Positions 1,491 through 25,082 of a stretch of 64,000 nucleotides of DNA are shown here, in pieces. Location: assembly GCF_000733935.1 (NCBI RefSeq), contig NZ_JPON01000001.1, forward strand, positions 3,093,501-3,157,500, in the 5' to 3' direction. The notes beneath the pieces are model-generated. The model saw nothing but the letters and a program-made list of their open reading frames with translations, was not told the origin of the DNA and did not search any database. The DNA comes from Methylomarinum vadi (GTDB lineage Bacteria > Pseudomonadota > Gammaproteobacteria > Methylococcales > Methylomonadaceae). Each line of letters opens with the position of its first letter. Position 1 is the stretch's first letter. The position numbers and the translations under genes were made by a program.

Positions 1491-2129
1491 ATGAAATTGA
1501 ACCGTTTTTCCATCTTAGCTTTATTATTTGCAACAATATTCGTAAACGGCGTTCGGGCCGATGATTCGTTATCGGCTTTGATGCAGAGAATGCGATCCGA
1601 ACAGGCGGTCAGAATCGCTTATCAGGAGACCCGCACGCTGGCGCTTATGGATCAGCCCTGGCGGGGCAGTGGATATATGTATTCGCTGCCGCCCGATACG
1701 ATGCTCAAAGAGCAGTTGCAGCCGGAACGGTTGTTGATGGCCATCGTCGGGGGCGACATGTATTATTACGATCCCGGTAACGATGTCCGGCATCAGGCGG
1801 CGCTGGACGAAGACAATCCGATGAGCTTGAATATCGCCGTGTTCAAGGCGCTAATGATGGCCGATCGTAAGTTGTTGGAAAGGATGTACGCGGTCGATTT
1901 TTCCGTGCAGCCGGAACAGTGGGTGTTGCGGCTGACCGCCAAGCATGAGCCCGATTCCGGTTTCGGCATAGAAATCTCGGGATTGCCGCAACAACAGCCC
2001 AAACGGATCGTGGTGGAACAGGCCGACGGCGACAGCAGCGTATTCGACTTGCGTAAGGACGCCGAAGGCGGCGAGGTGGCGGCCGATGCGGAACGGCTGT
2101 TACAGGAATTGCTCGATTCCGAACAATAA
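1491..2129 (+). CDS. LolA-like outer-membrane lipoprotein carrier
   Basis: 212 residues beginning with a cleavable signal peptide (MKLNRFSILALLFATIFVNG, likely cut near VRA-DD). The rest looks like the LolA/LolB beta-barrel fold: an early amphipathic stretch ending in YQETRTLALM, then SGYMYSLPPDTMLKEQ and a C-terminal region of short strands. This version is typical of copies encoded in aryl polyene-like clusters, thought to carry a lipid product through the periplasm rather than lipoproteins. The ATG directly follows the preceding stop codon. It is followed after 79 bases by the MMPL exporter, an arrangement seen in those clusters. Confidence 0.7.
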   Translation: MKLNRFSILALLFATIFVNGVRADDSLSALMQRMRSEQAVRIAYQETRTLALMDQPWRGSGYMYSLPPDTMLKEQLQPERLLMAIVGGDMYYYDPGNDVRHQAALDEDNPMSLNIAVFKALMMADRKLLERMYAVDFSVQPEQWVLRLTAKHEPDSGFGIEISGLPQQQPKRIVVEQADGDSSVFDLRKDAEGGEVAADAERLLQELLDSEQ

Positions 2130-2208
2130 CAATCAATGATCAATCAACCCCGCGGCGTAACGACTCAGCCGGTCGGAACGAGGCCGGCATGCGGCATCAT
2201 AATAAAAA

Positions 2209-4545
2209 ATGCGAACTTTAATCCCACGACTATTCAATTTGCCCGGACTGACTCGGCGGCATCTGTTGTTTTATTTGCTGCCGCCGCTATTGGCCGTCAT
2301 TGCCTATATGGCGACGACGGTCAAAACCGATATTTCCGCCTTCATTCTCGCCGGCGATAATGCCGAGGAAATTCTGTTGGCCAGCGAAATGCAGTCCGGG
2401 GTATTGTCGCGGCGTTATTTGTTGTCGGTCGGCGCCAAGCAGCCAGGAGGCGTGCCGCAACAATTCGTCCGGCAATTGCGTGCCCGGTTGCAAGGCATCG
2501 ACGGCGTGGCCGATGTCTGGTCGCCCAGCCAACAGCGCGACGTGGTGCAGGAATTGCTCAGCCTGTATAGCAAACATGCCGGCTCTCTTTATAGTCTCGA
2601 GCCCGAGAACGATTTAGCGAAGCTGTTCACCCCGCAAGGCCTGCAGGATCGGGCCGCATTGTTGAAGCAGGCGCTGTTGTCGCCGCAAGCGAGCATGGTC
2701 AAGACGATTGTCCGGCACGACCCTCTGTTATTGACGCTGGACGCCTTTAAGGAACAGGTCGGGACCTTGCAGCAGGCTGCCGACCCACAGGCGCAATATC
2801 AGAACCTGGTTCTGGAAACGACGATGTCGGGGCTGGAAGTGCCCGAGCAAAGCCGTATCCAGCAAGCGATCCAGGCAGAATTTGATGGGCTGGTACAAAA
2901 TGAGGGGCAGCGTTTTCAGTTGGAAATGACCGGGGTGCCGATCTTCGCGGTCGCGACGCAGAACTTGATCAAAGGCGATATAGAAAAGGTCAGTGCGTTG
3001 TCCTCGATCGCGTTAATTGTGTTGTTTTTTCTGATTTTCCGTTCTTTCAACGCGTTGTTCCAGGTTTTTAGCCTGTTGCTGATCGTGATATTGAGTGCGA
3101 TATTGGCCACACAAGCGACTTTTGGATATGTTCACGGCATGACCATCGCGTTAGGTTCGACCCTGGTCGGCATTTGTATCGATTACCCGATCCATGCCGT
3201 CGTCCACGCGCATACTGTGACTGCGGCGGAACGTTATGCCGTAGTCGCCCGGATCTGGCCCAGCATGGTGCTCGGCGGCTTGACCACCCTGATAGGTTAT
3301 GTTGCGTTGGGTTCCTCCGGCTATCCTGGGTTCCAACAGATCGCCGTTTACGCCGCCACCGGTATCCTGCTGGCGCTGTTGCTGACCCGCTTTGTTTTGC
3401 CCGGTTTGGTCAAGACTCGGGAACAGCGACAATTGAACATCCCTTGCGTTGGACCTTGGGCCCGCTTTTGCCGGCGGCATCGGTTGGGCCTTTCGCTATT
3501 GTTGTTGGCGGGCTTGGGAGTGGCGCTATGGGGCGTGCAGTCGTTGCGTTGGTTGGAAGACATGCAGCAACTGACCCCGGAACTGAATTATCTGAAGGAA
3601 AACGATAAACGCATTCGCGCCCGCATGGTCAGCGTCGAGCCGGGACGTTTCATCATGGTGACCGGCGCCGATAATGAAACCGCCTTGCGTAAAACCGAGC
3701 AGGTTTATCGAACGTTGCAAGAGCTCAAACGGCAGGGCGGTTTGAGCGAATATTTCGGTTTGTATCCATGGCTCCTGTCCGTCGGCCAGCAGCTGCAAAA
3801 CCGGCAATTGTTACAGCAATATTTGACCGAAGATAATTTGGCATTGTGGCGAGAAGCGCTGCGGCAACAGGGATTATCAGTGAAACTGCTGGGGCGCTTC
3901 GATTATCCGCAAACAGAGCCGTTAAAGCCGGAACAAGTTTTTGCGACACCAGCGAAACGTTTGTTGGACAGCCGCGTGATCGAGTCCGAAGGAAAAACGG
4001 TTGTCATGATCTGGATTGCCGATCACGATTACGACCTGGTCAAGGCGACCTTCGCCGGCTGGAGCGGCGTGCAGTATTTCAGCTATCGTGAGTTGCTAAA
4101 CGGCATGCTCCAGGACTATACCGAAAAGGCGGAAATGTTGTTGCTGGCGGGATTGGCGTTGATCGTGGCGTTACTGATCGTGCGTTACCGGAGCGTGTTC
4201 AAGGCCTTGCAAACGCTAATGCCGGCGGTCATGGCGGCATTTTTCATCTTCGGCATCTGGGGCTTGAGCGGCGCGTTGATCAGTTTCCTGCATTTGGTCG
4301 GTTTTCTGTTGGCCGTGGCGATTTGTGTCGATTACGGGATTTTCTATCAGGAAAACCGCGGCGGCGATATCGCGTTGACCTATCAAGCCATGGCGGCCTC
4401 GATGTTGACCAGCGTGCTGGCTTTTGGTTGTCTGATTACGGCGGATAGCACTTCGTTGCGAACCCTTTCGGGCGTGGTCGCCTTCGGCGTGTTGCTGGGC
4501 TTCTTATTATGTCCGATCATTATTCGCCACACCCCTGAAAAATAA
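2209..4545 (+). CDS. MMPL/RND-family lipid exporter (COG4258 type)
   Basis: 778 residues with the two-fold repeat of RND/MMPL proteins: one N-terminal membrane helix, a large periplasmic loop (about residues 50-255), five membrane helices, then helix, second loop and five helices. The helix motif GSTLVGICIDYPIH and its counterpart LAVAICVDYGIFY carry the conserved acidic residue expected for proton-coupled transport. Members linked to aryl polyene and xanthomonadin clusters export lipid-like pigments toward the outer membrane. Here it follows the COG4648 and LolA-like genes but no ketosynthase or acyl carrier genes are seen downstream. The stop codon overlaps the next ATG by one base (TAATG), indicating translational coupling. 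Confidence 0.85.
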   Translation: MRTLIPRLFNLPGLTRRHLLFYLLPPLLAVIAYMATTVKTDISAFILAGDNAEEILLASEMQSGVLSRRYLLSVGAKQPGGVPQQFVRQLRARLQGIDGVADVWSPSQQRDVVQELLSLYSKHAGSLYSLEPENDLAKLFTPQGLQDRAALLKQALLSPQASMVKTIVRHDPLLLTLDAFKEQVGTLQQAADPQAQYQNLVLETTMSGLEVPEQSRIQQAIQAEFDGLVQNEGQRFQLEMTGVPIFAVATQNLIKGDIEKVSALSSIALIVLFFLIFRSFNALFQVFSLLLIVILSAILATQATFGYVHGMTIALGSTLVGICIDYPIHAVVHAHTVTAAERYAVVARIWPSMVLGGLTTLIGYVALGSSGYPGFQQIAVYAATGILLALLLTRFVLPGLVKTREQRQLNIPCVGPWARFCRRHRLGLSLLLLAGLGVALWGVQSLRWLEDMQQLTPELNYLKENDKRIRARMVSVEPGRFIMVTGADNETALRKTEQVYRTLQELKRQGGLSEYFGLYPWLLSVGQQLQNRQLLQQYLTEDNLALWREALRQQGLSVKLLGRFDYPQTEPLKPEQVFATPAKRLLDSRVIESEGKTVVMIWIADHDYDLVKATFAGWSGVQYFSYRELLNGMLQDYTEKAEMLLLAGLALIVALLIVRYRSVFKALQTLMPAVMAAFFIFGIWGLSGALISFLHLVGFLLAVAICVDYGIFYQENRGGDIALTYQAMAASMLTSVLAFGCLITADSTSLRTLSGVVAFGVLLGFLLCPIIIRHTPEK

Positions 4546-6932: not shown

Positions 6933-8003
6933 TTACAGCGAGGACAGGGCCATCAACTTTTTCATCAAGGCCGCCTGATTGTGTACACCCATTTTCTGCA
7001 TGGAACGTTTCAGGTGATTGCGCACCGTTTCCTGGGAGCGGCAGGTGCTGGCGGCAACGTCGGGAATGGATGGGTTTTGCATGAAATGCAGCGCGCAAAT
7101 GGCTTCGCATTTGGACAATGTATAAATTTCCATTAATCGCTCAATGGCCGAGTTGCTGTCCTTGTCATGCGTAAAGGCAAGAATAATTCCTTCTTTGTGG
7201 CATTCCCAATGATAGAGGTTTTCCAGGGAGTCGATCGGAATCAGGGTGATTTGGCAAGAAAGGCATTGATTGCGAAAGGAAACTTTATCCTGCTTAGCGG
7301 CGATCAAATGCAATAGGCGTTGTTCGGTGGCCGGATTGTTTACGGCGAATTTGTCGCCGCTGATATTGACGCAATCCATGGAATTGATAATGCGGCTATC
7401 GACGGGGTCGACAAAGAGAATGTTCAAATCACGGTCGACGATGAGATAGGCGTCGAAGCGCGAGCCTAGGTAATGGAATAGCTGACTGTTGATTTTATGG
7501 CGTTTTTCGGCATGAATGGAATCTTCCAACGTTGGCAATAAAGTTTGCAGCGTTTTGACGCCATGGCGTTGCTCTTGTTTGCTGAAACGCTTGTCCCGGT
7601 TAATCAGCAGGCTTAAGGCATGGCGGTGATTACAGGGAACCGAGATGCCGAAACGGTGGGTCAGATTCTCGTTAGCCAACGGGTTATTCATGATTTCTTC
7701 CCGATAATTGGGCCCGAGTGCCTGGTTACAATAAGCTTGCCGGGGATTTTTACTGATGAAATGATTGAAAACATCGAGCTTATTTAGACGGCTCTCGTAT
7801 TGTCGACGGTAGTCGTACGATAGATTGAAACTATAGAGAAAACGGGTGTTTTCCCGCTCCACTAAATCGGTCACCAACATGAATCCGGAGTGGCAGTCGA
7901 GAAGCCGGGTCAGCAAGGCAAGAAATTGTTGCCACAATATCGGATTGCCGGGCGCGTGAGCCAGAAGGGAATTCGGGGTGATCGGTTCGTAAACTTGGTC
8001 CAT
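6933..8003 (-). CDS. LuxR-family transcriptional regulator with N-terminal sensory region
   Basis: 356 residues. The last 65 or so form a LuxR/GerE helix-turn-helix: LSKCEAICALHFMQ, then IPDVAASTCRSQETVRNHLKRSMQKMGV, with the typical T/S-x-x-T-V-R-N-H-L recognition helix. The first 290 residues look like two sensory domains, a GAF-like one (residues about 15-150) and a PAS-like one (about 180-280, LGSRFDAYLIVDRDLNILFVD), but no autoinducer-binding consensus is seen. The ATG at 8003 with AAGGCGGG upstream is preferred to a TTG 33 bases earlier. The gene diverges from the cytochrome/GMC/patatin set, so it is a natural candidate for its regulator; the ligand is unknown. Confidence 0.8.
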   Translation of the reverse strand: MDQVYEPITPNSLLAHAPGNPILWQQFLALLTRLLDCHSGFMLVTDLVERENTRFLYSFNLSYDYRRQYESRLNKLDVFNHFISKNPRQAYCNQALGPNYREEIMNNPLANENLTHRFGISVPCNHRHALSLLINRDKRFSKQEQRHGVKTLQTLLPTLEDSIHAEKRHKINSQLFHYLGSRFDAYLIVDRDLNILFVDPVDSRIINSMDCVNISGDKFAVNNPATEQRLLHLIAAKQDKVSFRNQCLSCQITLIPIDSLENLYHWECHKEGIILAFTHDKDSNSAIERLMEIYTLSKCEAICALHFMQNPSIPDVAASTCRSQETVRNHLKRSMQKMGVHNQAALMKKLMALSSL

Positions 8004-8053
8004 TTTTCCCGCCTTTTTAATTATTATTGTTTGCAAGGGTTAGTCAGGAAAGG

Positions 8054-8410: not shown

Positions 8411-8663
8411 TCCAGTAGCCTTAGGTTGAGTTTAGCGCTTTTGGCTCGAAGATAAAACATTGTTTTTATAAGGGGTATGTGATTTTTAGGCGTTCTATGC
8501 CGTTTTCACCGATAACTCTTCATCTCCGGCAAAAAATTGCGCTTATCCGGTAATAACCATTCGGCTCGGCTTGCGAAAAACTTCTTTGGCATCAACGTTA
8601 ATGAGTTTTGGCGTTAAGTTTATGAGCTCGACCATGCGATGCGCGAAATATGGGAGAGACAAC

Positions 8664-11222
8664 ATGATTCAGCCAATAAAAGGTCTACCCGTGATCGTTA
8701 CGGGAACATTGCTGTTACTGCTGGCGGGATTCAGCAGTAATAGCATGGCTTTGTTCGAACAAAACAAACCTTGTGATCAGCGCGGAGTCGGTAAGGTGTT
8801 GGATGAAGCGAAATGCGTCGGCAGAACGGTGCAGAGCTTTCCTGCCGCCGATGAGGATTATTATCGCGAGATGGATTACGGCATTACCAAAGATCCGCAA
8901 GCGGTGGCCAAGGCGCTAGAGCCTTATGTGCCGGGGATCTCCCCCGAAGATGCGGTCAAGGCGGCGGTGATCGGGCGTAACAACTGGATCGCCTGGAGCG
9001 CCGGCAACGATCGCTTGTGGAACAAACTTGGCTATGAAAGCCGTGGCAATCTGGATTTTCTGAAGACGTTGTCCAGCCACCCCAGTTTGAAATTCAATCG
9101 GCATAACCGGTGGCGTTACTTGGGGCTGGTGAATGAGCCTTGCTTCAAGCAAGCCTCCGGTCCGAACAAGGACAGGTACGGTTTATGGTTGGATGTGCGT
9201 AAGAAGAATTGTCCCAAGGACCCTTTCGAAAACGAGGAAAAATATCCCGGCGTCAAGATTGGCGCCCGAGGCAAGAATATTCCCGTAGGCTCCTTCTATG
9301 GATACGCCTCCGGCATCGTCGGTTTGAGGTTGTTTCCCAATCCCGACTTCGATGAAGAGGCGGAAAAACGCTGGGACCCCGAGCGCTTCTATACCGATCC
9401 CAGTTATTACAATGACAAGAATCTGGTCAGGCCCTACCGGGTCGGAATGTCCTGCGGCTTCTGCCATGTCGGGCCCAACCCGGCCAATCCGCCCAAAGAC
9501 CCGGAAAATCCGGAATGGGCCAACCTGAATTCCAATCCTGGGGCGCAATATTTCTGGATAGACCGCATTTTCACCTGGACCGCCGACCCGTCCGATTATC
9601 CTTATCAGCTGTTCCATACCTCGCGTCCCGGGGCGCTCGATACGTCGCTGGTTTCCTCAGACTATATCAATAACCCCCGGACTATGAATGCGGTTTACAA
9701 TCTCGGTGCCCGCCTGGCGATCGCGAAAAGATTCGGCGAGGAAAAGCTTTCCGGCGGCAGCCTCGATAACAAACAGCTGAATGAGTATGTCGGCGCAGAC
9801 AGTCCATTGAGCGACTATTATAAAGCGCCTGATACCGTCTGGACGCCACGCGTGCTCAAGGATGGGGCCGACTCGGTGGGCGCCCTGGGAGCCTTGAACC
9901 GGGTATTCATCAACATCGGCCTGTTCAGCGAAGAATGGCTGGAGCATTTCAATCCGTTGATCGGCGGTAAGAAAATTACGCCGATTCCGATCAAGACCGC
10001 GCGCAAAAACTCCATCTATTGGCAGGTCAACGAATCGCAGACGCCCAACCTGGCCTTGTTTTTTCTGGCCAGCGCCAAACCCGATTATCTGAAAAACGCG
10101 CCGGGCGGCGGAAAATATCTGAGCGAGGATGCGGAGACGTTGGCCAAGGGCAAGGATGTGTTTGCCGAGCGTTGCGCCCGCTGCCACTCCAGTAAACTGC
10201 CGGAAAAGGCCTTTTCCTTCTTCCCGGACGGTTGTGTCGGCAAGAATTATCTCAGTTGCTGGAATGGTTATTGGAGTTGGAGCAAAACGGAGGATTTCAA
10301 GAAGGCGATGAAACGGATCGTCAAGCAGGACGATTTTCTCGAGGATAATTTCCTCTCCACCGAATTGAGGATTCCGGTGACCTTGCTGGAAACCCAGGCG
10401 TGCAGTCCGCTGGCGACCAACGCGATCAGGGACAATATCTGGGATAACTTCTCTTCCGAGTCGTATAAAAACCTGCCGTCGGTCGGCAAATACACGGTGC
10501 ATCATCCGCTGACCGGCGAGCCCCGGGAATTCGACATGCCGGCGGGCGGCCTCGGTTATACCCGGCCAGCTTCGTTGGTCAGCTTGTGGTCCACCGCGCC
10601 GTTCCTGCTCAATAACTCGGTGGGCGATTTCAATCCCAGTCCATCGGTGGATGCGCGTATGCAATCCTTCAAGGATTCGATCACGAAAATGCTGTGGCCG
10701 GAGAAACGTAAGGGCAACGTCCAGTATCAAACCGCTTCCGGCAAAATGCTGCCCGGCTGGGTCGATCGCACCACTGCGACCAGCTATTTGCGAGTTCCGT
10801 CAGGTTATGTTCCCGAATTGCTGGAAAAGGTGGTCGATAAAATCAGTGGCGGCAGCCTGGTCGGCGAACGGGGTATAGAGCTGGGGCCGATTCCCAAAGG
10901 CACGCCGGTTAATTTGCTTAGCGGCATCGACCTGGACCGGCGCGACGGTATCATCGACCGAATCAAGCACAAGGCGCAATTGTTGACGTTGTTGCTGAAA
11001 ATCAAAAAAGACCTGAAATCCTTGCCCAAAGACGCCACCGACGAACAGGCGGCCGAAGCGTTTGCCGACCTAGTCGATCCGTTGGTCAAGGCCAGCAAAT
11101 GCCCCGATTACATCGTCAATCGCGGACATTATTTCGGCACCGATTATTTGAAGGACCAGGATGAGCCGGGACTCAGTGACGAAGAAAAAATGGCGTTGAT
11201 CGCTTTCCTGAAAACCATGTAA
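8664..11222 (+). CDS. large exported di-haem cytochrome c of unknown function
   Basis: 852 residues from the ATG at 8664, chosen because GGGAGAG precedes it and because it gives a clean signal peptide (hydrophobic stretch VIVTGTLLLLLAGF, cut near SMA-LF); an in-frame start at 8571 would bury the signal. Two haem c attachment sites are visible: CGFCH at residues 264-268 and CARCH at 504-508, 240 residues apart. The protein is far larger than usual di-haem peroxidases; two widely spaced haems in one long chain recall the MauG/di-haem peroxidase and RoxA-like rubber oxygenase groups, but no decisive motif was seen. It starts a plus-strand set with a GMC oxidoreductase and a patatin-like lipase. 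Periplasmic electron transfer or oxygenase activity are both possible. Confidence 0.75.
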   Translation: MIQPIKGLPVIVTGTLLLLLAGFSSNSMALFEQNKPCDQRGVGKVLDEAKCVGRTVQSFPAADEDYYREMDYGITKDPQAVAKALEPYVPGISPEDAVKAAVIGRNNWIAWSAGNDRLWNKLGYESRGNLDFLKTLSSHPSLKFNRHNRWRYLGLVNEPCFKQASGPNKDRYGLWLDVRKKNCPKDPFENEEKYPGVKIGARGKNIPVGSFYGYASGIVGLRLFPNPDFDEEAEKRWDPERFYTDPSYYNDKNLVRPYRVGMSCGFCHVGPNPANPPKDPENPEWANLNSNPGAQYFWIDRIFTWTADPSDYPYQLFHTSRPGALDTSLVSSDYINNPRTMNAVYNLGARLAIAKRFGEEKLSGGSLDNKQLNEYVGADSPLSDYYKAPDTVWTPRVLKDGADSVGALGALNRVFINIGLFSEEWLEHFNPLIGGKKITPIPIKTARKNSIYWQVNESQTPNLALFFLASAKPDYLKNAPGGGKYLSEDAETLAKGKDVFAERCARCHSSKLPEKAFSFFPDGCVGKNYLSCWNGYWSWSKTEDFKKAMKRIVKQDDFLEDNFLSTELRIPVTLLETQACSPLATNAIRDNIWDNFSSESYKNLPSVGKYTVHHPLTGEPREFDMPAGGLGYTRPASLVSLWSTAPFLLNNSVGDFNPSPSVDARMQSFKDSITKMLWPEKRKGNVQYQTASGKMLPGWVDRTTATSYLRVPSGYVPELLEKVVDKISGGSLVGERGIELGPIPKGTPVNLLSGIDLDRRDGIIDRIKHKAQLLTLLLKIKKDLKSLPKDATDEQAAEAFADLVDPLVKASKCPDYIVNRGHYFGTDYLKDQDEPGLSDEEKMALIAFLKTM

Positions 11223-11273
11223 GGCGATAAACCAAATCTAATAATCGATCGAGCCGGCCTAAGGAGAATGAAG

Positions 11274-13154
11274 ATGAGCGGATATAAGCAAGCAGATTTC
11301 GAATATATTGTGGTCGGATCGGGTGCCGGCGGTGGCACCGTCGCAGCCAGGCTGGCGGAACAAGGACACAAGGTTTTGGTGTTGGAGGCCGGGGGCGATC
11401 CTCATTTCATGGAAGGGGGCGATCCGCCTTATCCGAACGAAAACCGTTTGCCCGGTGACTACGATGTGCCGGTGTTTCATACCTTCGCGTCGGAAAACGA
11501 GGCGATGAAATGGGATTTCTTTGTGCGCCACTATGGCGATGAAGCATTACAGGCGAAAGACCCCAAATATACCAAGGAGGAAGGCGGCGTGCTTTATCCC
11601 CGTTCCGGTTGTTTGGGCGGTTGTACCGCGCATAACGCGATGATCACCGTGTATCCCCATAACGACGACTGGAATGAATTGGCCAGGATCACCGGCGACG
11701 CATCTTGGAAAGCCGATAACATGCGCAAGTATTTCGAACGCATGGAAAACTGCAAGCATCGTCCGCTGGATCGTCTTAAATCCTTGTTGGGATTCAATCC
11801 CAGCCGGCACGGCTGGCGGGGCTGGTTTCAAACCGAAAAAGCCATTCCCAAGGCGGCATTGCGCGACAAGCCCCTGCTGGAAGCCATCAAGGATTCGGTT
11901 AAACAGGAATTCGCCAAACTGCCCAAACCGTTGAAACGCATCGAATGGCAGTTGGAGGGGCTGGCCGATCCCAACGACTGGCGCCTGGTGCAGGAAAACG
12001 CGGTGGGCTTGCGTTATCCGCCGCTGGCGACCAAGAATCATGCCCGGCATGGTACGCGCGAGCGACTGTTGGTCACCTATCAGAAACATCCCGAGCAGAT
12101 CAAGATCGAATTGAACGCGCTGGTGACGCGAATAATCCTCGATGATGACAATCGCGCAGTCGGTGTTGAATACCAGAAAGGAGAAAAGTTATATCGAGCG
12201 CATGCTATTCCGAGCAATGAGCCTGGCGAACCCAAAACAGCTTATGCTTCCCGCGAAGTGATTTTGGCCGGCGGAGCCTACAACACGCCGCAATTGCTGA
12301 TGCTGTCGGGTATCGGCCCGCAAGAGGAACTGCAAAAACATAATATCGAGGTGAGACTGGATTTGCCCGGCGTCGGCAGCAATCTGCAGGACCGTTACGA
12401 GGTCGGCGTCGTCAATCGGATGAATTTCAAGAGTTGGGAAGTGCTGGACGGCGCCAAATACGCCAAGGGCGATCCTCAATACGAGGAATGGGAAAGCAAA
12501 CGCAGCGGCGTTTATACCACCAATGGCGCGGTTCTGGCGGTGATCAAGCGATCGCTGCCGGAACGACCGCTGCCCGATTTGTTTTGTTTCGCCTTGCTAG
12601 GCAAGTTCAAGGGTTATTTCCCCAACTATTCGACACTGATCAAGGAGCATCTCAATTATCTGACCTGGGCGGTGCTGAAGGCCCACACCAATAATCGCGC
12701 GGGGGTCGTCCGCTTAAAATCCAGCGACCCCAGAGACCGCCCCTATATCAATTTCCGCTATTTCGAGGAAGGCAGCGACGACAACGGCGAAGACCTCGAG
12801 TCGGTGGTCGAGGGCATCAAGTTCGTGCGCAGCCTGACCGCGCCGTTGAAGGCCGATGGCTTGATCGCCGAGGAGGAATTGCCCGGCGAGCAATTGCAAA
12901 GCGATGACGAGCTGCGTGATTTTGTCAAATACCATGCCTGGGGCCACCATGCCTCCTGTAGCTGTCCGATCGGCGCCGACGACGATCCGATGGCGGTGTT
13001 AGACGGCGATTTCCGGGTACGGGGGATAAAAGGGTTGCGGGTCGTCGATGCCTCGGTATTTCCCCGTATTCCCGGCTTCTTCATCGTATCCTCGATCTAC
13101 ATGATCGCCGAAAAAGCCGCCGATGTGATCAGCCGGGATGCTCACGGTTATTGA
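11274..13154 (+). CDS. GMC-family flavin oxidoreductase
   Basis: 626 residues. The FAD-binding motif GSGAGGG starts at residue 15, followed by VLVLEAGGDP; the second GMC signature region reads YPRSGCLGGCTAHNAM, and the C-terminal domain ends in LRVVDASVFPRIPG then YMIAEKAADVI. A His pair at about 558-559 (WGHHASCSCPIG) sits where the catalytic His is expected, but the usual downstream His/Asn is replaced within PGFFIVSS. No signal peptide or Tat motif is present, so it is predicted cytoplasmic, unlike the adjacent cytochrome. AAGGAG has proper spacing only to the ATG at 11274, not to the one at 11268. The substrate, probably an alcohol or lipid-like compound, is unknown. Confidence 0.85.
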   Translation: MSGYKQADFEYIVVGSGAGGGTVAARLAEQGHKVLVLEAGGDPHFMEGGDPPYPNENRLPGDYDVPVFHTFASENEAMKWDFFVRHYGDEALQAKDPKYTKEEGGVLYPRSGCLGGCTAHNAMITVYPHNDDWNELARITGDASWKADNMRKYFERMENCKHRPLDRLKSLLGFNPSRHGWRGWFQTEKAIPKAALRDKPLLEAIKDSVKQEFAKLPKPLKRIEWQLEGLADPNDWRLVQENAVGLRYPPLATKNHARHGTRERLLVTYQKHPEQIKIELNALVTRIILDDDNRAVGVEYQKGEKLYRAHAIPSNEPGEPKTAYASREVILAGGAYNTPQLLMLSGIGPQEELQKHNIEVRLDLPGVGSNLQDRYEVGVVNRMNFKSWEVLDGAKYAKGDPQYEEWESKRSGVYTTNGAVLAVIKRSLPERPLPDLFCFALLGKFKGYFPNYSTLIKEHLNYLTWAVLKAHTNNRAGVVRLKSSDPRDRPYINFRYFEEGSDDNGEDLESVVEGIKFVRSLTAPLKADGLIAEEELPGEQLQSDDELRDFVKYHAWGHHASCSCPIGADDDPMAVLDGDFRVRGIKGLRVVDASVFPRIPGFFIVSSIYMIAEKAADVISRDAHGY

Positions 13155-13192
13155 TCTCGAGCCCGCCGGACACGAAACTAATGGAGAACCGC

Positions 13193-15484
13193 ATGGATCA
13201 TTTGAGTCGTGACGAGAGGATAGACCCGGTTGCTCCGGGCAAGGCCGATGAGCCGAACAGGCGCCGTCTGTCCATCGAGCAAGCCAGTATAAAATTACTG
13301 GCCGCGGAAGCCAAATACATTAACGCCTGGCGGCACAAGAACGGACGCTCAGGCGAAGGAGATAAGCCGGAACATATCAATGGTCTGGCCTTGTCCGGCG
13401 GCGGTATTCGTTCGGCCACATTCGCCCTGGGGGTAATGCAGGCCTTAGCGCATCATAACCTGCTGAAGAAATTCGACTATCTATCCAGCGTTTCCGGCGG
13501 CGGTTATACCGGTTCGGCATTGAGTTGGTTTCTCAGCGCCAAAGCCAATGCGGAACGTTCCGACGGCGGCGAACCTTTCAACGCAGACAAAAGCAATTTT
13601 CCGTTCGGCAGCGATTCGCCCGATCCTCATGAAGCATTTGCCGATAACCCCAAGCAACGTGCCATTTTGAATTATTTGCGCGACCACGGGCATTACCTTA
13701 ATCCTGGGGCCGGAATCAATATTTTTGCCCTGCTTGGCGTGGTATTGCGCGGCACTTTGCTCAATTTGATAGTCTGGCTGCCGCTGGCGACCCTGCTGTT
13801 GGTTGCGGGGTTTTGGTTGCCGCAGCGGATCGCCTTGTTCAGGACCTTTGCCGATGATCCGTTGCTCGGAAAATTGCTCGGCGCCATTCCTAATGGCGCT
13901 TATCAATGGGACGAGGCGTTGTTGGGCTATGAATTTCTGTTGCGCCTGGTTATTTTGATTATCGGTTCCTTATTATTAGGTATCGTCATCTATTCGATAA
14001 TCACTTGGTTGCGCCGCAGCCAAATGTGCGGCAAAGTCGGAGGTTTTTGCTGGTACGGGGTACGGCGGATGGCGGAACAGGCGACCTCGGTAGCGTTGCC
14101 GTTCACCCTAGTGATCCTGATTATTGGTTTGCTGCCGGCGGTCACATCCTATGTCGTGGCGATTGGCCCTTTGGCGCTGATCATAGGGATCGCCATGCAT
14201 TTGCGTGATTTTTTTAGCCAGTTGTCCGCTGGCGAAAAGAAGCCTCTGGGGATTATCGTTCCAATCGCGGCAGCATTGGTGTTGTACGGTTTTTTCGCCC
14301 TGGCCTTTCAATTGGGATTTAGTCTGTGGCAAAGCACGCCATCCGTTTTTTCCGTCTGGATCGTCATTTTGCTGGCTGTCTCGGTGGTGACCGGTATATT
14401 CGCCAACTTGAATTATATTTCCGTCAACCGTTATTACCGCGATCGGTTGATGGAGAATTTCATGCCGGATATCGATAACGCGCTGGCCAATAAAACCGAC
14501 ATGGCGAAGGGAGCCGACGAGGCGTATTTGTGCTGTTTTAACGATCCGGGCAATCCTAACTCGCCTTATCATCTGATTAATGCCAATGTCGTATTGGCCG
14601 ACTCCAAAAATCCGACCTACAAGGTGCGCGGCGGAGACAATTTCTTACTGTCGCCGTTTTATTGCGGCAGTAACGCCACCGGTTGGTGTCCCACCCATCA
14701 CTATATGGAAGGTCGGATGACGTTGGCGACGGCCTTCGCGATTTCCGGCGCGGCGATCAACCCCAATGCCGCCGTTGGCGGGGAAGGCGTGACCCGCAAC
14801 AAGATCCTGTCGCTAGTCATGACGTTGTTGAATCTGCGCCTGGGTTATTGGGCGCACAATCCCTGTAAGCCGCCTTTCAACCATATCGCCAACCATTTCA
14901 ATCCCAGCGCCTTGTACGCATTGGGCAGCGCCTTCAACATCAAGGGCTTTACCGAAAACGAAGCATTTATCGAATTAAGCGACGGCGGCCATTTCGAGAA
15001 TATGGCCGTGTATGAGCTGGTTCGGCGGAAGGCCAGCCTGATTTTGGTCAGCGATGGTGGCCAGGATGTTGAATTCAGTTTTTCCGATTTTCAAACCACG
15101 ATCAGGCGTATCGAGACGGATTTCGGCGCCCGGGTTGATTTTCATGACGATGATTACGGGCCCGACAACGTTCTTCCTGTGCCTCCTCCTGGCGCCGAGT
15201 ATCCGTCCGGCGCCAAATTTTCGGAGCGAGGCTTTATGACCGGAACTATCCACTACGCGGATGGCAGCGAAGGGAGGCTGGTTTATTTGAAATCGACCAT
15301 GATCAGGCAAGCCAGTTTCAAGGTTAAAGGCTATAAGGCGCAGGAGCCGGATTTTCCGGACCAAAGCACCGCCGACCAGTTTTTCGACGATGTGCAGTTC
15401 GAGGCATACCGAGAACTGGGCTTTACAATTGCCGACAGCATGCTCAATGATCCGAAATTGAATTTTGCGGCGTTGTTGCATTAG
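13193..15484 (+). CDS. patatin-like phospholipase with internal membrane segments
   Basis: 763 residues. The patatin oxyanion motif SGGGIRS is at residue 68, the nucleophile elbow SVSGGGYTG has its Ser at 101, and the catalytic Asp is in SDGGHFEN at 597. Between the two halves of the active site lie about six hydrophobic segments (residues roughly 180-420), so the catalytic domain is split around a membrane-embedded region. Such enzymes hydrolyse acyl esters of phospholipids or other lipids. The ATG at 13193 is preferred over a TTG at 13151 that overlaps the GMC stop, since GGAG precedes it by 6 bases. Position suggests cotranscription with the cytochrome and GMC genes, possibly supplying or processing a lipid substrate. 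Confidence 0.85.
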   Translation: MDHLSRDERIDPVAPGKADEPNRRRLSIEQASIKLLAAEAKYINAWRHKNGRSGEGDKPEHINGLALSGGGIRSATFALGVMQALAHHNLLKKFDYLSSVSGGGYTGSALSWFLSAKANAERSDGGEPFNADKSNFPFGSDSPDPHEAFADNPKQRAILNYLRDHGHYLNPGAGINIFALLGVVLRGTLLNLIVWLPLATLLLVAGFWLPQRIALFRTFADDPLLGKLLGAIPNGAYQWDEALLGYEFLLRLVILIIGSLLLGIVIYSIITWLRRSQMCGKVGGFCWYGVRRMAEQATSVALPFTLVILIIGLLPAVTSYVVAIGPLALIIGIAMHLRDFFSQLSAGEKKPLGIIVPIAAALVLYGFFALAFQLGFSLWQSTPSVFSVWIVILLAVSVVTGIFANLNYISVNRYYRDRLMENFMPDIDNALANKTDMAKGADEAYLCCFNDPGNPNSPYHLINANVVLADSKNPTYKVRGGDNFLLSPFYCGSNATGWCPTHHYMEGRMTLATAFAISGAAINPNAAVGGEGVTRNKILSLVMTLLNLRLGYWAHNPCKPPFNHIANHFNPSALYALGSAFNIKGFTENEAFIELSDGGHFENMAVYELVRRKASLILVSDGGQDVEFSFSDFQTTIRRIETDFGARVDFHDDDYGPDNVLPVPPPGAEYPSGAKFSERGFMTGTIHYADGSEGRLVYLKSTMIRQASFKVKGYKAQEPDFPDQSTADQFFDDVQFEAYRELGFTIADSMLNDPKLNFAALLH

Positions 15485-22169: not shown

Positions 22170-25082
22170 TCAGTTTTTGCCGCTGGCGGCGATACGGTTT
22201 TCGATTTTTTGTTTATATTGCAAGTAATGAATGCTGTGGGCTTGGACAAGCTCTTCGACGCCAAGCAACTCGGCGGAGACATCAATTTCATTGATATGGT
22301 AAGGATAAGTCTCGTGGCCGTGCCTGAACCGCAAAATATGTTCCTTGGTTGAGTAGAAAACGTCATCCGCAGAGGCCGACGAATATTTTCGTTCGTTGCA
22401 GGCAATCGTCGGTGGACTGTCCGGTTCCGCAGTAGGCGAAGTCGTAATGCGGATGTTCAGCGCCATGAAAGACTCTTGTGGTTTGATTTTGACGGCATGG
22501 CAGGATGGAACGCCGGCAGAGTTTTTTTGAATTTCATAAATACGAATTTTTGTTGCGTGCGCTATTTTGGTCTGGTCGATCAGGGTTTGTAAAAAGACAA
22601 GATAATCAACCAAAACCTGCTCCGGTTTGCTGTCGCTATGCTGTCGGGTAAACAACGCCGCTTTCTCGTCGATGATATAGATAGCGACATATTTTTCCGT
22701 GGCATGAAAAAAGATCTGTATCGTGTTGGCGGCTATATGGGCATAAAGAAACGGGATGAACGTATTGCTCAGTACATGCTGGTCGAAAAAAATGGGGGAG
22801 AATTGTTGCTGCGTAGCGGATAGCTCTCTTAACAATAAATCATTGGTGGCCAGTTTGCGATACGTTAAGTGTTGGGCATTATGAGTGAAGAGGTAATAGC
22901 CGCTTTTAGCCGGTACGATATAGCGCCAGTTTGAATTCTGGTTCCCGAAGAATTTAATTAATTGGTTAAATAGCACCTTAATGCGTAACACAATGCTTTT
23001 CGCGCGCAGCGGAGTGTAGCAGATCACATCCAGGCTATCGCTGGTGACGGGGGGGGTGCTTTGATTGAATACTTCCGTCAAACAGTGGAAAAAACCCTCG
23101 ATATCGTGGAATCTCGCAAGACTGACTTCGCCCCAACTGGATAGAGAAATCCGCTCAATGCGCTGCACAAAACACGCCCGGTTCTCGCCGTAACTTAAAG
23201 GGTCCGAGCGTTCGCTCATAATGATCTGACCTTCTTCCCGGGCTTCGGGCAATGCCTCGCCGAGATTGAGAAACAGCAGCGAAGCCAGAAACTGGTTCGC
23301 ATGATGGTAGGCTTCCAGCATTTCACCATCCGATTTTTTGTGGGAGGAAAAAAAACGCAGCAATTGGTCCAAAATCAACTGCGTTTCGGTCGGGCCGATG
23401 TTCAGGTTGATTGAATGGAGGTGAATTTTAACTCTGTTTTGGTACAAACCATTTAAGGCAATCCAACACAATAGTTCCAGCAGACTTTCCGCTTCCTTGA
23501 CCGGCTTGGCGTTTTCTTTTTTGGGGTTTCCGACATAGCCGCAATACAAATGCCAAAGCGGTTCGGCATGTTCTTGATCGATTTCGATGAGGGATAATTC
23601 GTCCTCTTTTTTTTGGACGTTGCCTCGGGTCGTGATGATCTCGATCTTTCCCGGTTTGTGTTCTAAATAGGCATGCAGTTTTCGGCCGATCAATCTGAGA
23701 TCCTGATTGTCGCGGTAATCTTCTTCGACATGTTGGCCGGCAAAGCGTACGATCATACGCAGGCATTGTTTCAATTGGTCGCGAATGACGGCATGTTCCT
23801 CGGTGGCTTTATGGATATCCCAGTAGCGATGCCTGCTGAAATTGGGCAGCAGATCTTCTGGCCAACGCCATTGTCGGGCGATTTCCTGCAAGTAATTCTC
23901 TCGAAGCGATCGTGCCTGTGGGTCCAGTGACCTGGGTGAATCGCCCATGATTTTTAAATAAAAACATTGCCGCGACAGCGCCAGCCTTCTTTGCGAGGCG
24001 ACCAGGTGCAGATATTCCTCGACTTTTTCATAGATCAATAAATACGGGTCCAGCCTGTCTATATCGAACTCCCCTTGGTAAATGGTCTTTTTCAGGCTGC
24101 GGCTGACCCATTGCGGTTGCGGATATTCGCTGGCATAGCATTCCATCAAAAAAAGCTTCAACAGCGATTTGTAAGGGGAGCTAAGCGATTTGTAGATATG
24201 CCAAAGGGTCGCGCTGATAAACTCCTCTGCCGGCACCGCTTCCAGTCCGCCGAAATCGATGACATCGAGTTTCGAGATGAAACGGTTGGACAATAAATGG
24301 TCGACGTAGCCGCTGTAGTTGTCTTCTTGGTGGGGGGGGACGATCCACCAGGCAGGCGCCTTGCCGGCCAGATAAATGGCGGTGCGATAGAACTCTTCGA
24401 GCAATAAATAGTGTTGGGTTTGGCCGCTGCTTTCGGTTGAAATCGGCGTGTTCTCGCCTCGCCGAAATTGTTCGCTGTTCATCAAAAAGAAATGGACTTC
24501 GAGATTCAGCGACTGCGCCCATTTTTCCAAGGCGTGGGCTTTTTGTTGCAGTTCGTTGATCTCGGTGCTGGATAAGTGATCGGTATGGCATAGCCAAATA
24601 TCCATATCGCTGGTTTTTGAGAAGGCGATGCTGCCGACGCTACCCATTAGGAAAATAGCCTCGATCGCATAATTTCTGAGGGCCTTGCGGGTGTAACGGT
24701 AACTCTTCGAAAATTGCTTGGCAGCGAGAATGGTTGTTTTGTTGGGGCTGTAGTCGGGAATGCCGCAAGGAGTGTCGGTGGAAATGAAACCGGGTAGCAG
24801 GGGGTGGTTTCGATGAAACAATAACGGCAGAAGATTTAAAAAGATCTGTTGCCGGGGTTGCAGAAAATTTTGCACGCTCTGCAAGCGGTATTGATTCAGA
24901 TGTTTGAAGCGTTGAGTAATGGCATGAAGATCCTTGCTACTGATTTCCTCGCCAGGCGCGCCGAGGTTGATGGGAGGGTAATGTTTTTTCAAGGTCGTTG
25001 CGGCAAGTCGATGTTTTATATTCAAGTATAGAAAATCATAGCGGCAGGTGAAAAGATAGCTGAACAAAACATTCGTTGCCAT
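22170..25082 (-). CDS. cyaA: class I adenylate cyclase
   Basis: 970 residues, the size of enterobacterial and Pseudomonas CyaA. The nucleotidyltransferase active site is visible as MGSVGSIAFSKTSDMDIWLCH near residue 145-165 (GS...D.D pattern), flanked by conserved regions such as LLKLFLMECYASEYP. It converts ATP to cAMP in the cytoplasm. The ATG at 25082 overlaps the end of the upstream phosphatase gene by 47 bases and lacks a clear ribosome site; a TTG at 25025 is an alternative start. cAMP receptors are likely elsewhere in the genome; a tandem cNMP-binding protein occurs at the right end of this window. Confidence 0.93.
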   Translation of the reverse strand: MATNVLFSYLFTCRYDFLYLNIKHRLAATTLKKHYPPINLGAPGEEISSKDLHAITQRFKHLNQYRLQSVQNFLQPRQQIFLNLLPLLFHRNHPLLPGFISTDTPCGIPDYSPNKTTILAAKQFSKSYRYTRKALRNYAIEAIFLMGSVGSIAFSKTSDMDIWLCHTDHLSSTEINELQQKAHALEKWAQSLNLEVHFFLMNSEQFRRGENTPISTESSGQTQHYLLLEEFYRTAIYLAGKAPAWWIVPPHQEDNYSGYVDHLLSNRFISKLDVIDFGGLEAVPAEEFISATLWHIYKSLSSPYKSLLKLFLMECYASEYPQPQWVSRSLKKTIYQGEFDIDRLDPYLLIYEKVEEYLHLVASQRRLALSRQCFYLKIMGDSPRSLDPQARSLRENYLQEIARQWRWPEDLLPNFSRHRYWDIHKATEEHAVIRDQLKQCLRMIVRFAGQHVEEDYRDNQDLRLIGRKLHAYLEHKPGKIEIITTRGNVQKKEDELSLIEIDQEHAEPLWHLYCGYVGNPKKENAKPVKEAESLLELLCWIALNGLYQNRVKIHLHSINLNIGPTETQLILDQLLRFFSSHKKSDGEMLEAYHHANQFLASLLFLNLGEALPEAREEGQIIMSERSDPLSYGENRACFVQRIERISLSSWGEVSLARFHDIEGFFHCLTEVFNQSTPPVTSDSLDVICYTPLRAKSIVLRIKVLFNQLIKFFGNQNSNWRYIVPAKSGYYLFTHNAQHLTYRKLATNDLLLRELSATQQQFSPIFFDQHVLSNTFIPFLYAHIAANTIQIFFHATEKYVAIYIIDEKAALFTRQHSDSKPEQVLVDYLVFLQTLIDQTKIAHATKIRIYEIQKNSAGVPSCHAVKIKPQESFMALNIRITTSPTAEPDSPPTIACNERKYSSASADDVFYSTKEHILRFRHGHETYPYHINEIDVSAELLGVEELVQAHSIHYLQYKQKIENRIAASGKN

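Follow-up and report, generated by a model that had tools for sequence, protein, structure and literature searches.

A large di-haem cytochrome c from Methylomarinum vadi as a new subfamily of the RoxA/di-haem-peroxidase superfamily

We analysed a 64,000-nucleotide stretch of the Methylomarinum vadi genome (contig NZ_JPON01000001.1, positions 3,093,501 to 3,157,500; hereafter the window) and, within it, the gene at positions 8664 to 11222, which encodes an unusually large di-haem cytochrome c, P0001. A first-pass annotation had suggested that P0001, which loosely recalls the RoxA rubber oxygenases, may be a new branch with its own substrate. Bridging sequence profiles and an AlphaFold model place P0001, at the level of sequence and predicted fold, in an undescribed branch of the RoxA/di-haem-peroxidase superfamily as a subfamily of its own; this is a new subfamily of a known superfamily. 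Its inheritance with a GMC flavoenzyme, often together with lipid-cutting enzymes, suggests a role in lipid oxidation.

The open reading frame (ORF) starts with an ATG at 8664 on the + strand and its stop codon ends at 11222. A ribosome-site-like GGGAGAG, judged by eye, lies upstream of the ATG, and an alternative in-frame TTG at 8571 would make the product 31 residues longer. The gene and its principal sites are as follows.

8664..11222, + strand: di-haem cytochrome c, P0001, 852 residues, assigned to a new subfamily of the RoxA/di-haem-peroxidase superfamily (ORF, motifs, profiles, AlphaFold model)
8664..8750, + strand: hydrophobic export signal at the N-terminus, residues 1-29 (from hydropathy and the helix predicted at 8-23; cleavage site by eye only)
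9453..9467, + strand: haem-1 site CGFCH, residues 264-268, with H268 equivalent to RoxA H195 (motif, alignment)
10173..10187, + strand: haem-2 site CARCH, residues 504-508, with H508 equivalent to RoxA H394 (motif, alignment)

The hydrophobic N-terminus and the helix predicted at about residues 8-23 would fit export via Sec. Translation of the ORF confirmed that the two CxxCH sites start 240 residues apart and that more than 340 residues (344) follow the second, as first annotated. For conservation counts we used 81 relatives that have two CxxCH sites, start by query residue 110 and reach residue 845; these comprise 74 subfamily rows (P0001 included) and 7 rows of a sister group that bears the MauG-motif histidine discussed below, where L084 and L086 represent the same gene. 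The pair of CxxCH sites is not a chance occurrence, because none of 20,000 shuffles of the P0001 composition contained two such sites and because C264, C267, H268, C504, C507 and H508 are invariant in 74/74 full-length subfamily rows as well as in all 7 sister rows (6 distinct genes).

The claim that P0001 is larger than RoxA-type oxygenases held against RoxA35Y, whose gene of 2037 bp corresponds to about 678 residues (PMC6311187, Table 1), so that it is mostly right, but such a length is not unique among Rox-type proteins, the NCBIfam RoxC model having 812 positions. Compared with RoxA (H195, H394, 662 residues; numbering from PMC6311187, Table 1 and section 8), P0001 has more residues ahead of haem 1, in the stretch between the two haems (240 vs 199) and beyond haem 2 (344 vs 268), and the extra length is distributed along the chain rather than held in a single added domain. 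An added C-terminal domain was ruled out, since the P0001 C-terminus aligns with that of RoxA-like proteins and the same ligand-His and ALI-x-LKT motif end RoxA. A frameshifted or fused gene was set aside in view of 73 other full-length rows with the same architecture. The subfamily also has a Cys pair of its own at 160/183 (each Cys in 73/74 rows), which has no counterpart in the sister rows, and a Cys-containing insert at 524/532 (Cys in 67 and 64 of 74 rows) that the sister rows lack.

Curated models did not capture P0001. A Pfam scan returned generic cytochrome c matches only, with no match to CCP_MauG PF03150 at E 0.01, and the NCBIfam models for RoxA, RoxB and RoxC (cut-offs 900-1000 bits) likewise gave none at E 0.01. 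The sole NCBIfam match, NF040606 'di-heme-cytochrome C peroxidase', scored 32.4 bits, below its cut-off of 150. Profiles built from relatives bridged the distance. The orthologue profile (alignment A1, 71 rows) matched RoxA-like proteins across the block that holds the C-terminal ligand His (98% by hhalign over 34 columns). A second profile (A3), built from 8 His-bearing relatives taken from the sister group (open frames shorter, 720-819 residues; 36-43% identity to P0001) and from compact relatives (537-570 residues), matched RoxA (4b2n) with E 0.0012, a match that stood tenth in its list behind small c-type cytochrome chains and was best over the MauG-motif block. A3 also aligned with A2, a profile built from 19 RoxA-like proteins, along 74 columns surrounding haem 2 (99%), and A2 in turn matches RoxA at 4.9e-27. 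The likeness to RoxA first noted is thus supported as superfamily membership by the bridging profiles and the predicted fold, and the suggestion of a new branch was upheld by a separate clade that fits no curated Pfam or NCBIfam model scanned.

The AlphaFold2 model of P0001 has a predicted local distance difference test score (pLDDT) of 88.2 and a predicted template modelling score (pTM) of 0.89. VIA-align, which re-aligned Foldseek's own list of 114 chains, paired the model with hydrazine synthase gamma (Z 9.1, 244 aligned, 4.6 Å), MauG (Z 8.5, 266 aligned, 4.0 Å), RoxA (Z 8.4, 370 aligned, 4.4 Å, with 17% identity over those residues) and BthA (Z 6.6, 279 aligned, 4.5 Å). RoxA and MauG were among the proteins that the first-pass annotation had singled out for comparison, and the model aligns with both. 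All of rows 1-10 are di-haem proteins and the best unrelated row reached Z 4.1; the di-haem core fold of MauG and the bacterial cytochrome c peroxidases (bCCPs) is predicted to be present. Similarly, the first 24 rows for a sister-group model (pLDDT 81.0) were di-haem proteins, bCCPs included, with Z from 11.0 (234 aligned, 4.0 Å) to 7.4, and the next row fell to 4.6.

Having placed P0001, we examined its predicted haem ligands and the residues expected around haem 1, which are as follows.

11127..11129, + strand: H822, predicted sixth ligand of haem 2, equivalent to RoxA H641 (alignment to the RoxA-like C-terminal block)
10608..10610, + strand: L649, replacing the MauG-motif histidine, RoxA H517 (alignments, tree)
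9858..9860, + strand: K399, aligned with the inter-haem Trp of RoxA, W302; 74/74 rows (alignment moderately sure)
9924..9926, + strand: F421, aligned with the distal Phe of RoxA, F317; 72/74 rows (alignment moderately sure)
9945..9947, + strand: H428, the sole invariant His (74/74) besides the haem ligands (subfamily alignment)

The CxxCH motifs mark H268 and H508 as the proximal ligands. At the end of the P0001 chain, NRGH822YF...ALI-x-LKT aligns with RoxA NGGH641DF...ALIEYIKTL, and H822 is present in 74/74 rows; because H822 corresponds to RoxA H641, haem 2 should be bis-His, with H508 and H822 as its predicted ligands. The MauG-type axial Tyr that the first-pass annotation had raised was not found, the aligned residue being His822 as in RoxA.

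The MauG motif itself is altered, reading PFLL649NNSVG in P0001 vs PYFH517NGSVP in RoxA. Position 649 is L in 51, Q in 16 and V in 7 of the 74 subfamily rows, and L, Q or V also in the subfamily fragments outside the count in which the motif is visible (L018, the first ORF of L019, L071, L073, L075 and L076); it is His in 7/7 sister rows (6 genes), in three compact proteins and in L085. A tree of 39 rows from a quick search, with 26 of the 74 subfamily rows and three from other genomes in the subfamily clade and with L085 long-branched, recovered the loss of this His as one change at the base of the 29-row clade (Shimodaira-Hasegawa-like approximate likelihood ratio test 100). On this tree, the MauG-motif His is lost once, at the base of the subfamily.

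In a mixed alignment the RoxA-like segment QWNGS...RNxGEA falls on L398-K399-D400-G401...N417-I418-G419-L420-F421, so that A316/F317 of RoxA fall on L420/F421 if W302 is the W of QW and RoxA is ungapped there; the first of these assumptions fits, since F301Q is given for PA2077 (PMC4496055). Position 421 is F in 72, Y in 1 and A in 1 of 74 rows. As to an equivalent of the RoxA distal Phe, F421 stands at the aligned F317 position with moderate alignment confidence, and its placement near haem 1 is presumed. Position 420 is L in 66 and T in 8 of 74 subfamily rows; the sister rows have E in 4, Q in 2 (one gene twice) and G in 1, that is, E or Q in 5/6 genes, and the RoxA-like rows of the mixed alignment have E in 9/12 (counted by eye). 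We infer that Glu in this column is the peroxidase distal Glu. The RoxA pocket, as described in PMC6797691, lacks acid-base residues and has F301 and F317 close to bound O2. Y452/W453 had been considered as the counterparts of RoxA F301/W302 and were dropped, because bridging sequences put the helix concerned immediately ahead of haem 2.

A scan of genome contigs gave 83 relatives, of which 80 loci were kept (50-78% identity over the best segment); by record titles and tree they come from Methylococcales, other gamma- and alphaproteobacteria, Acidobacteriota, Nitrospirota and others. Among 72,556 plasmid records 21 matched, and of these the 15 listed include rhizobial plasmid copies of about 45% identity, which, where annotated, are called 'cytochrome c' or 'hypothetical protein'. 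Within the window's own family, 12/121 genomes matched at E 0.001, 11 strongly (the window genome included; one, G442, a fragment) and one distantly (G428). The window's order gave the cytochrome in 18/151 genomes at E 1e-100, and an even draw from the phylum gave matches in 5/398, with only a distant relative in G078 and the sister type in G042. The gene is thus accessory yet widespread.

The genes flanking P0001 in the window are as follows.

11268..13154, + strand: GMC oxidoreductase, 628 residues, no signal peptide seen; H561 kept, Phe605/Val607 at the expected second GMC His/Asn (Pfam, alignment)
13151..15484, + strand: patatin-like phospholipase, for which hydropathy indicates several membrane helices; overlaps the GMC stop by 4 bases (operon) (Pfam, hydropathy)
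6933..8036, - strand: LuxR-type (GerE) regulator, divergent (Pfam)

Only 45 bases separate the P0001 stop from the GMC gene, and the two genes travel together. A GMC relative occurs in 70 of the 80 cytochrome loci (of the other 10, 6 lack flank and 4 have it), directly downstream of the cytochrome in at least 47 (L018 and L076 are adjacent but uncounted). In what is apparently one and the same draw of 151 order-level genomes, GMC was found in 19 at E 1e-100; all 18 genomes with the cytochrome are among them, and one has GMC alone (Fisher p 2e-22, phylogeny ignored). The two co-occur even when they lie on different contigs (G545, G572, G590), and the sister-group gene L154 is also paired with GMC. 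The LuxR regulator is probably outside the system, because no relative of it (E 1e-8) was found in the other loci compared.

The GMC family keeps its catalytic His, H561, in 68/68 ungapped rows. Phe605 is likewise found in 68/68, and position 607, which falls in the Asn region of choline oxidase (H466/N510), is mostly Val or Ala. As a separate observation, the His is doubled in this family (H560-H561), and an invariant Phe lies close to where the second catalytic His/Asn is usually found. Read by eye, the GMC N-termini in the loci compared showed no signal peptide, so the enzyme is probably cytoplasmic. A periplasmic dehydrogenase pair of GMC protein and cytochrome, as in gluconate dehydrogenase, was set aside because the GMC protein shows no export signal.

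Larger clusters occur elsewhere. On plasmid pRL11 of Rhizobium johnstonii 3841 (locus RL_RS32240-RL_RS32270) and on two Sinorhizobium plasmids, the genes run in the order old yellow enzyme (OYE), a 508-residue di-haem cytochrome, a 143-residue membrane protein, a 491-residue di-haem cytochrome, the P0001 homologue and GMC; a patatin follows GMC in pRL11 (by annotation) and in pSF45436e (by similarity) and is absent in strain B11. Both compact cytochromes of pRL11 match PF21419 RoxA-like_Cyt-c and keep PYLHNGSVP. Two Methylococcales loci have GMC, the P0001 homologue and a lipoprotein-type patatin, then the OYE-508-143-491 block. The collinear OYE-rox508-tm143-rox491 block is thus found in 5 loci (3 rhizobial plasmids, 2 Methylococcales), 4 of them with a patatin. 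The first-pass annotation had anticipated neither this cluster nor the near-obligate GMC partner nor the lost MauG-motif His. Similarity between window-type and lipoprotein-type patatins is significant only near the nucleophile, and at least two patatin architectures occur overall. Neighbours were counted in 98 loci with limited flanks and some near-duplicates: rox508 lies near the cytochrome in 10, rox491 in 9, tm143 in 4 and OYE in 9, three of these OYEs being only about 30% identical and six well matched. Other neighbours also recur: a conserved gene pair with products of about 450 and 515 residues in 15/98 loci (L022, L028, L030, L033, L036, L040 and others), the second with a sub-threshold match to DyP-type peroxidase, a DUF4331 protein in 13/98 and a TPR protein in 11/98 (L010, L014, L015, L050, L054, L072).

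We tentatively favour a reading in which P0001 is an exported, periplasmic di-haem protein whose substrate to be oxygenated is an unsaturated lipid from the membrane, either a fatty acyl chain or an isoprenoid. O2 would bind at haem 1 (His268), an open active site within a hydrophobic pocket that includes Phe421, and haem 2 (His508/His822), bis-His, would relay electrons. In loci that have a patatin, it would release the acyl chain; GMC would oxidise the resulting hydroxy product, OYE, where present, would reduce a conjugated carbonyl, and the two compact RoxA-like cytochromes may carry out companion oxygenations, comparable with the pairs RoxA/RoxB and the two oleate diol synthase enzymes. 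The acid-free pocket, the bis-His haem 2, the phospholipase and a pair of flavoenzymes whose chemistry would suit hydroxyl/carbonyl and enone groups together point to unsaturated-lipid oxygenation, as for PA2077/PA2078, which oxygenate a monounsaturated fatty acid (PMC4496055); RoxA and RoxB are a further superfamily precedent, with isoprenoids as substrates. The analysis establishes the sequence, the conservation and loss of motifs, the predicted fold, the gene linkage and the co-occurrence; we infer the use of O2 rather than H2O2, the lipid substrate, the step order and the facing of the pocket residues towards the haem. A substrate of its own for the subfamily, as first annotated, is plausible. 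A broader version is doubtful: a widespread, oxylipin-like lipid-oxidation pathway in which di-haem cytochromes replace lipoxygenases, with patatin release, up to three periplasmic RoxA-type oxygenations and processing by GMC and OYE, whose largest component would have lost the motif His and converged on RoxA's acid-free O2 pocket.

The most serious rival, which we regard as rather unlikely, is that P0001 is a degenerate electron-relay or scaffold partner that performs no oxygenation of its own, serving the compact di-haem cytochromes and/or taking GMC-derived electrons. The loss of the motif His across the clade and the Lys at the inter-haem Trp position leave room for such a role; the loss of the sister group's Glu/Gln at position 420, the compact, motif-keeping cytochromes that the syntenic clusters add and the near-perfect co-occurrence with GMC also speak for it. 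However, Pfam RoxA-like and NF040606 scans found no compact di-haem partner in the window, direct transfer across the membrane is unlikely from a GMC enzyme with no export signal seen by eye, and the pocket residues show strong conservation, not drift. A less probable alternative still is an H2O2-using peroxidase or a MauG-like enzyme that oxidises a protein or small molecule. The fold matches to MauG and BthA, the bCCPs matched by the sister model and the weak NF040606 score (32 bits vs 150) are in its favour, but both the acid at 420 and the motif His are absent, the predicted haem-2 ligand is His rather than Tyr or the Met of bCCPs, and PF03150 was not matched. That P0001 is a rubber oxygenase (RoxA, RoxB or RoxC) is highly improbable, despite superfamily kinship, two c-haems, a predicted bis-His haem 2 and a Phe at the F317 alignment position, given the unmatched RoxA, RoxB and RoxC models, the changed MauG motif and the link to GMC, of which no mention was found in the excerpted rubber oxygenase literature.

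Several observations weigh against our favoured reading or the placement beneath it. A single-sequence PDB search with P0001 gave 3 matches, RoxA not among them, and RoxA was also absent among the best 60 of 73 PDB matches to the orthologue profile, nearly all of those listed covering the CxxCH stretch of small c-type cytochromes. Foldseek found no convincing match in the PDB or in BFVD, for which large insertions may be the cause; RoxA is not in the VIA-align list of the sister-group model, and the tool warns that best Z values of 7-8 are common for models without a clear match. We accepted the di-haem kinship despite this warning because the top rows are uniformly di-haem and a gap lies below them. 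With the motif His and the inter-haem Trp gone, catalysis could be altered or lost, and the F317/W302 mapping depends on RoxA-like intermediates together with a regional profile alignment that is weak (74%), none of the alignments displaying RoxA residues 301-317. GMC, with no visible signal peptide, is not obviously in the same compartment as the exported cytochrome. The window-type patatin is present in only 22/80 loci, only a minority of loci carry OYE or the compact cytochromes (well-matched OYE 6, rox508 10, of 98), and the window itself has no RoxA-like Pfam or NF040606 match except P0001.

The same genome encodes further related proteins outside the window. One (L117/L155; G000:C1:2938370-2940136), of 660 residues with an intact MauG motif, is a second RoxA-superfamily protein and a full NF040606 member (597 bits), beside which lies an ORF with nine CxxCH sites (L155:10585-12543). 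Another (L118), a 638-residue open frame (601 in the fetched stretch), matches MbnH/MauG-like families in its second half and has about 260 extra N-terminal residues. Elsewhere in the window, a LolA_3 protein followed by an MMPL-type exporter at 1491-4545 is possibly a lipid or pigment export cluster, and 22173-25082 encodes a class I adenylate cyclase.

Among the open-access literature matches listed, there was no paper on the P0001 subfamily or on a GMC/patatin/di-haem cluster, which is no proof of absence. RoxA, MauG and oleate diol synthase show that members of this superfamily carry out uncommon O2 and peroxide reactions on widely differing substrates, and to it is added a large, strongly conserved subfamily from Pseudomonadota, Acidobacteriota and Nitrospirota that the Pfam and NCBIfam models scanned do not cover; a flavoenzyme is its near-obligate partner, and some lineages have it in a collinear cluster of several enzymes. 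Its natural, single-origin loss offers a handle on the role of the MauG-motif His, and the system a handle on how bacteria without lipoxygenase may make oxygenated lipids.

Compared with known systems, P0001 is like RoxA/RoxB of Steroidobacter cummioxidans 35Y (4b2n) in being exported with two c-haems, a C-terminal ligand His in an N-x-GH block, a final ALI-x-LKT-like motif, a W-(A/S)-T-A-P-(F/Y) block and, by a moderately sure alignment, a Phe at the distal position. It differs from RoxA in size (852 vs ~678 residues, longer in all three intervals), in the L/Q/V that replaces the MauG-motif His across the subfamily and, by the same moderately sure alignment, in the Lys at the inter-haem Trp position (Val in RoxB), and from both in the operon with GMC and patatin. 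RoxC-type proteins (NF051462, 812 positions) are likewise large with two catalytic haems, although P0001 does not match their model at E 0.01; PMC10837239 reports them without residues such as F317 or W302 and two tested ones without rubber cleavage. MauG, bCCPs, BthA and hydrazine synthase gamma have the di-haem core fold in common with P0001 or the sister model in chains of about 310-420 residues, and the haem-2 ligand of MauG is Tyr (PMC6405878) vs His822. NF040606 proteins (RoxA-like, about 600-660 residues), the nearest curated model, have the C-terminal motifs in common with P0001 and mostly Glu at the 420 column (9/12 rows, by eye), where P0001 has Leu. A possible relative from another methanotroph is SACCP (MCA2590) of Methylococcus capsulatus, a surface-associated di-haem protein listed as MauG family (PMC4831470). 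Finally, the Pseudomonas aeruginosa 10S-DOX and 7,10-diol synthase (PA2077/PA2078, 'FadCcp') are exported di-haem proteins of the RoxA group that work as a set, with haem spacings of 245 and 235 vs 240 in P0001; compared by description (PMC4496055, Table 1), they are shorter (634 and 624 residues) and keep an intact PYFHNGSVP motif where P0001 has L649.

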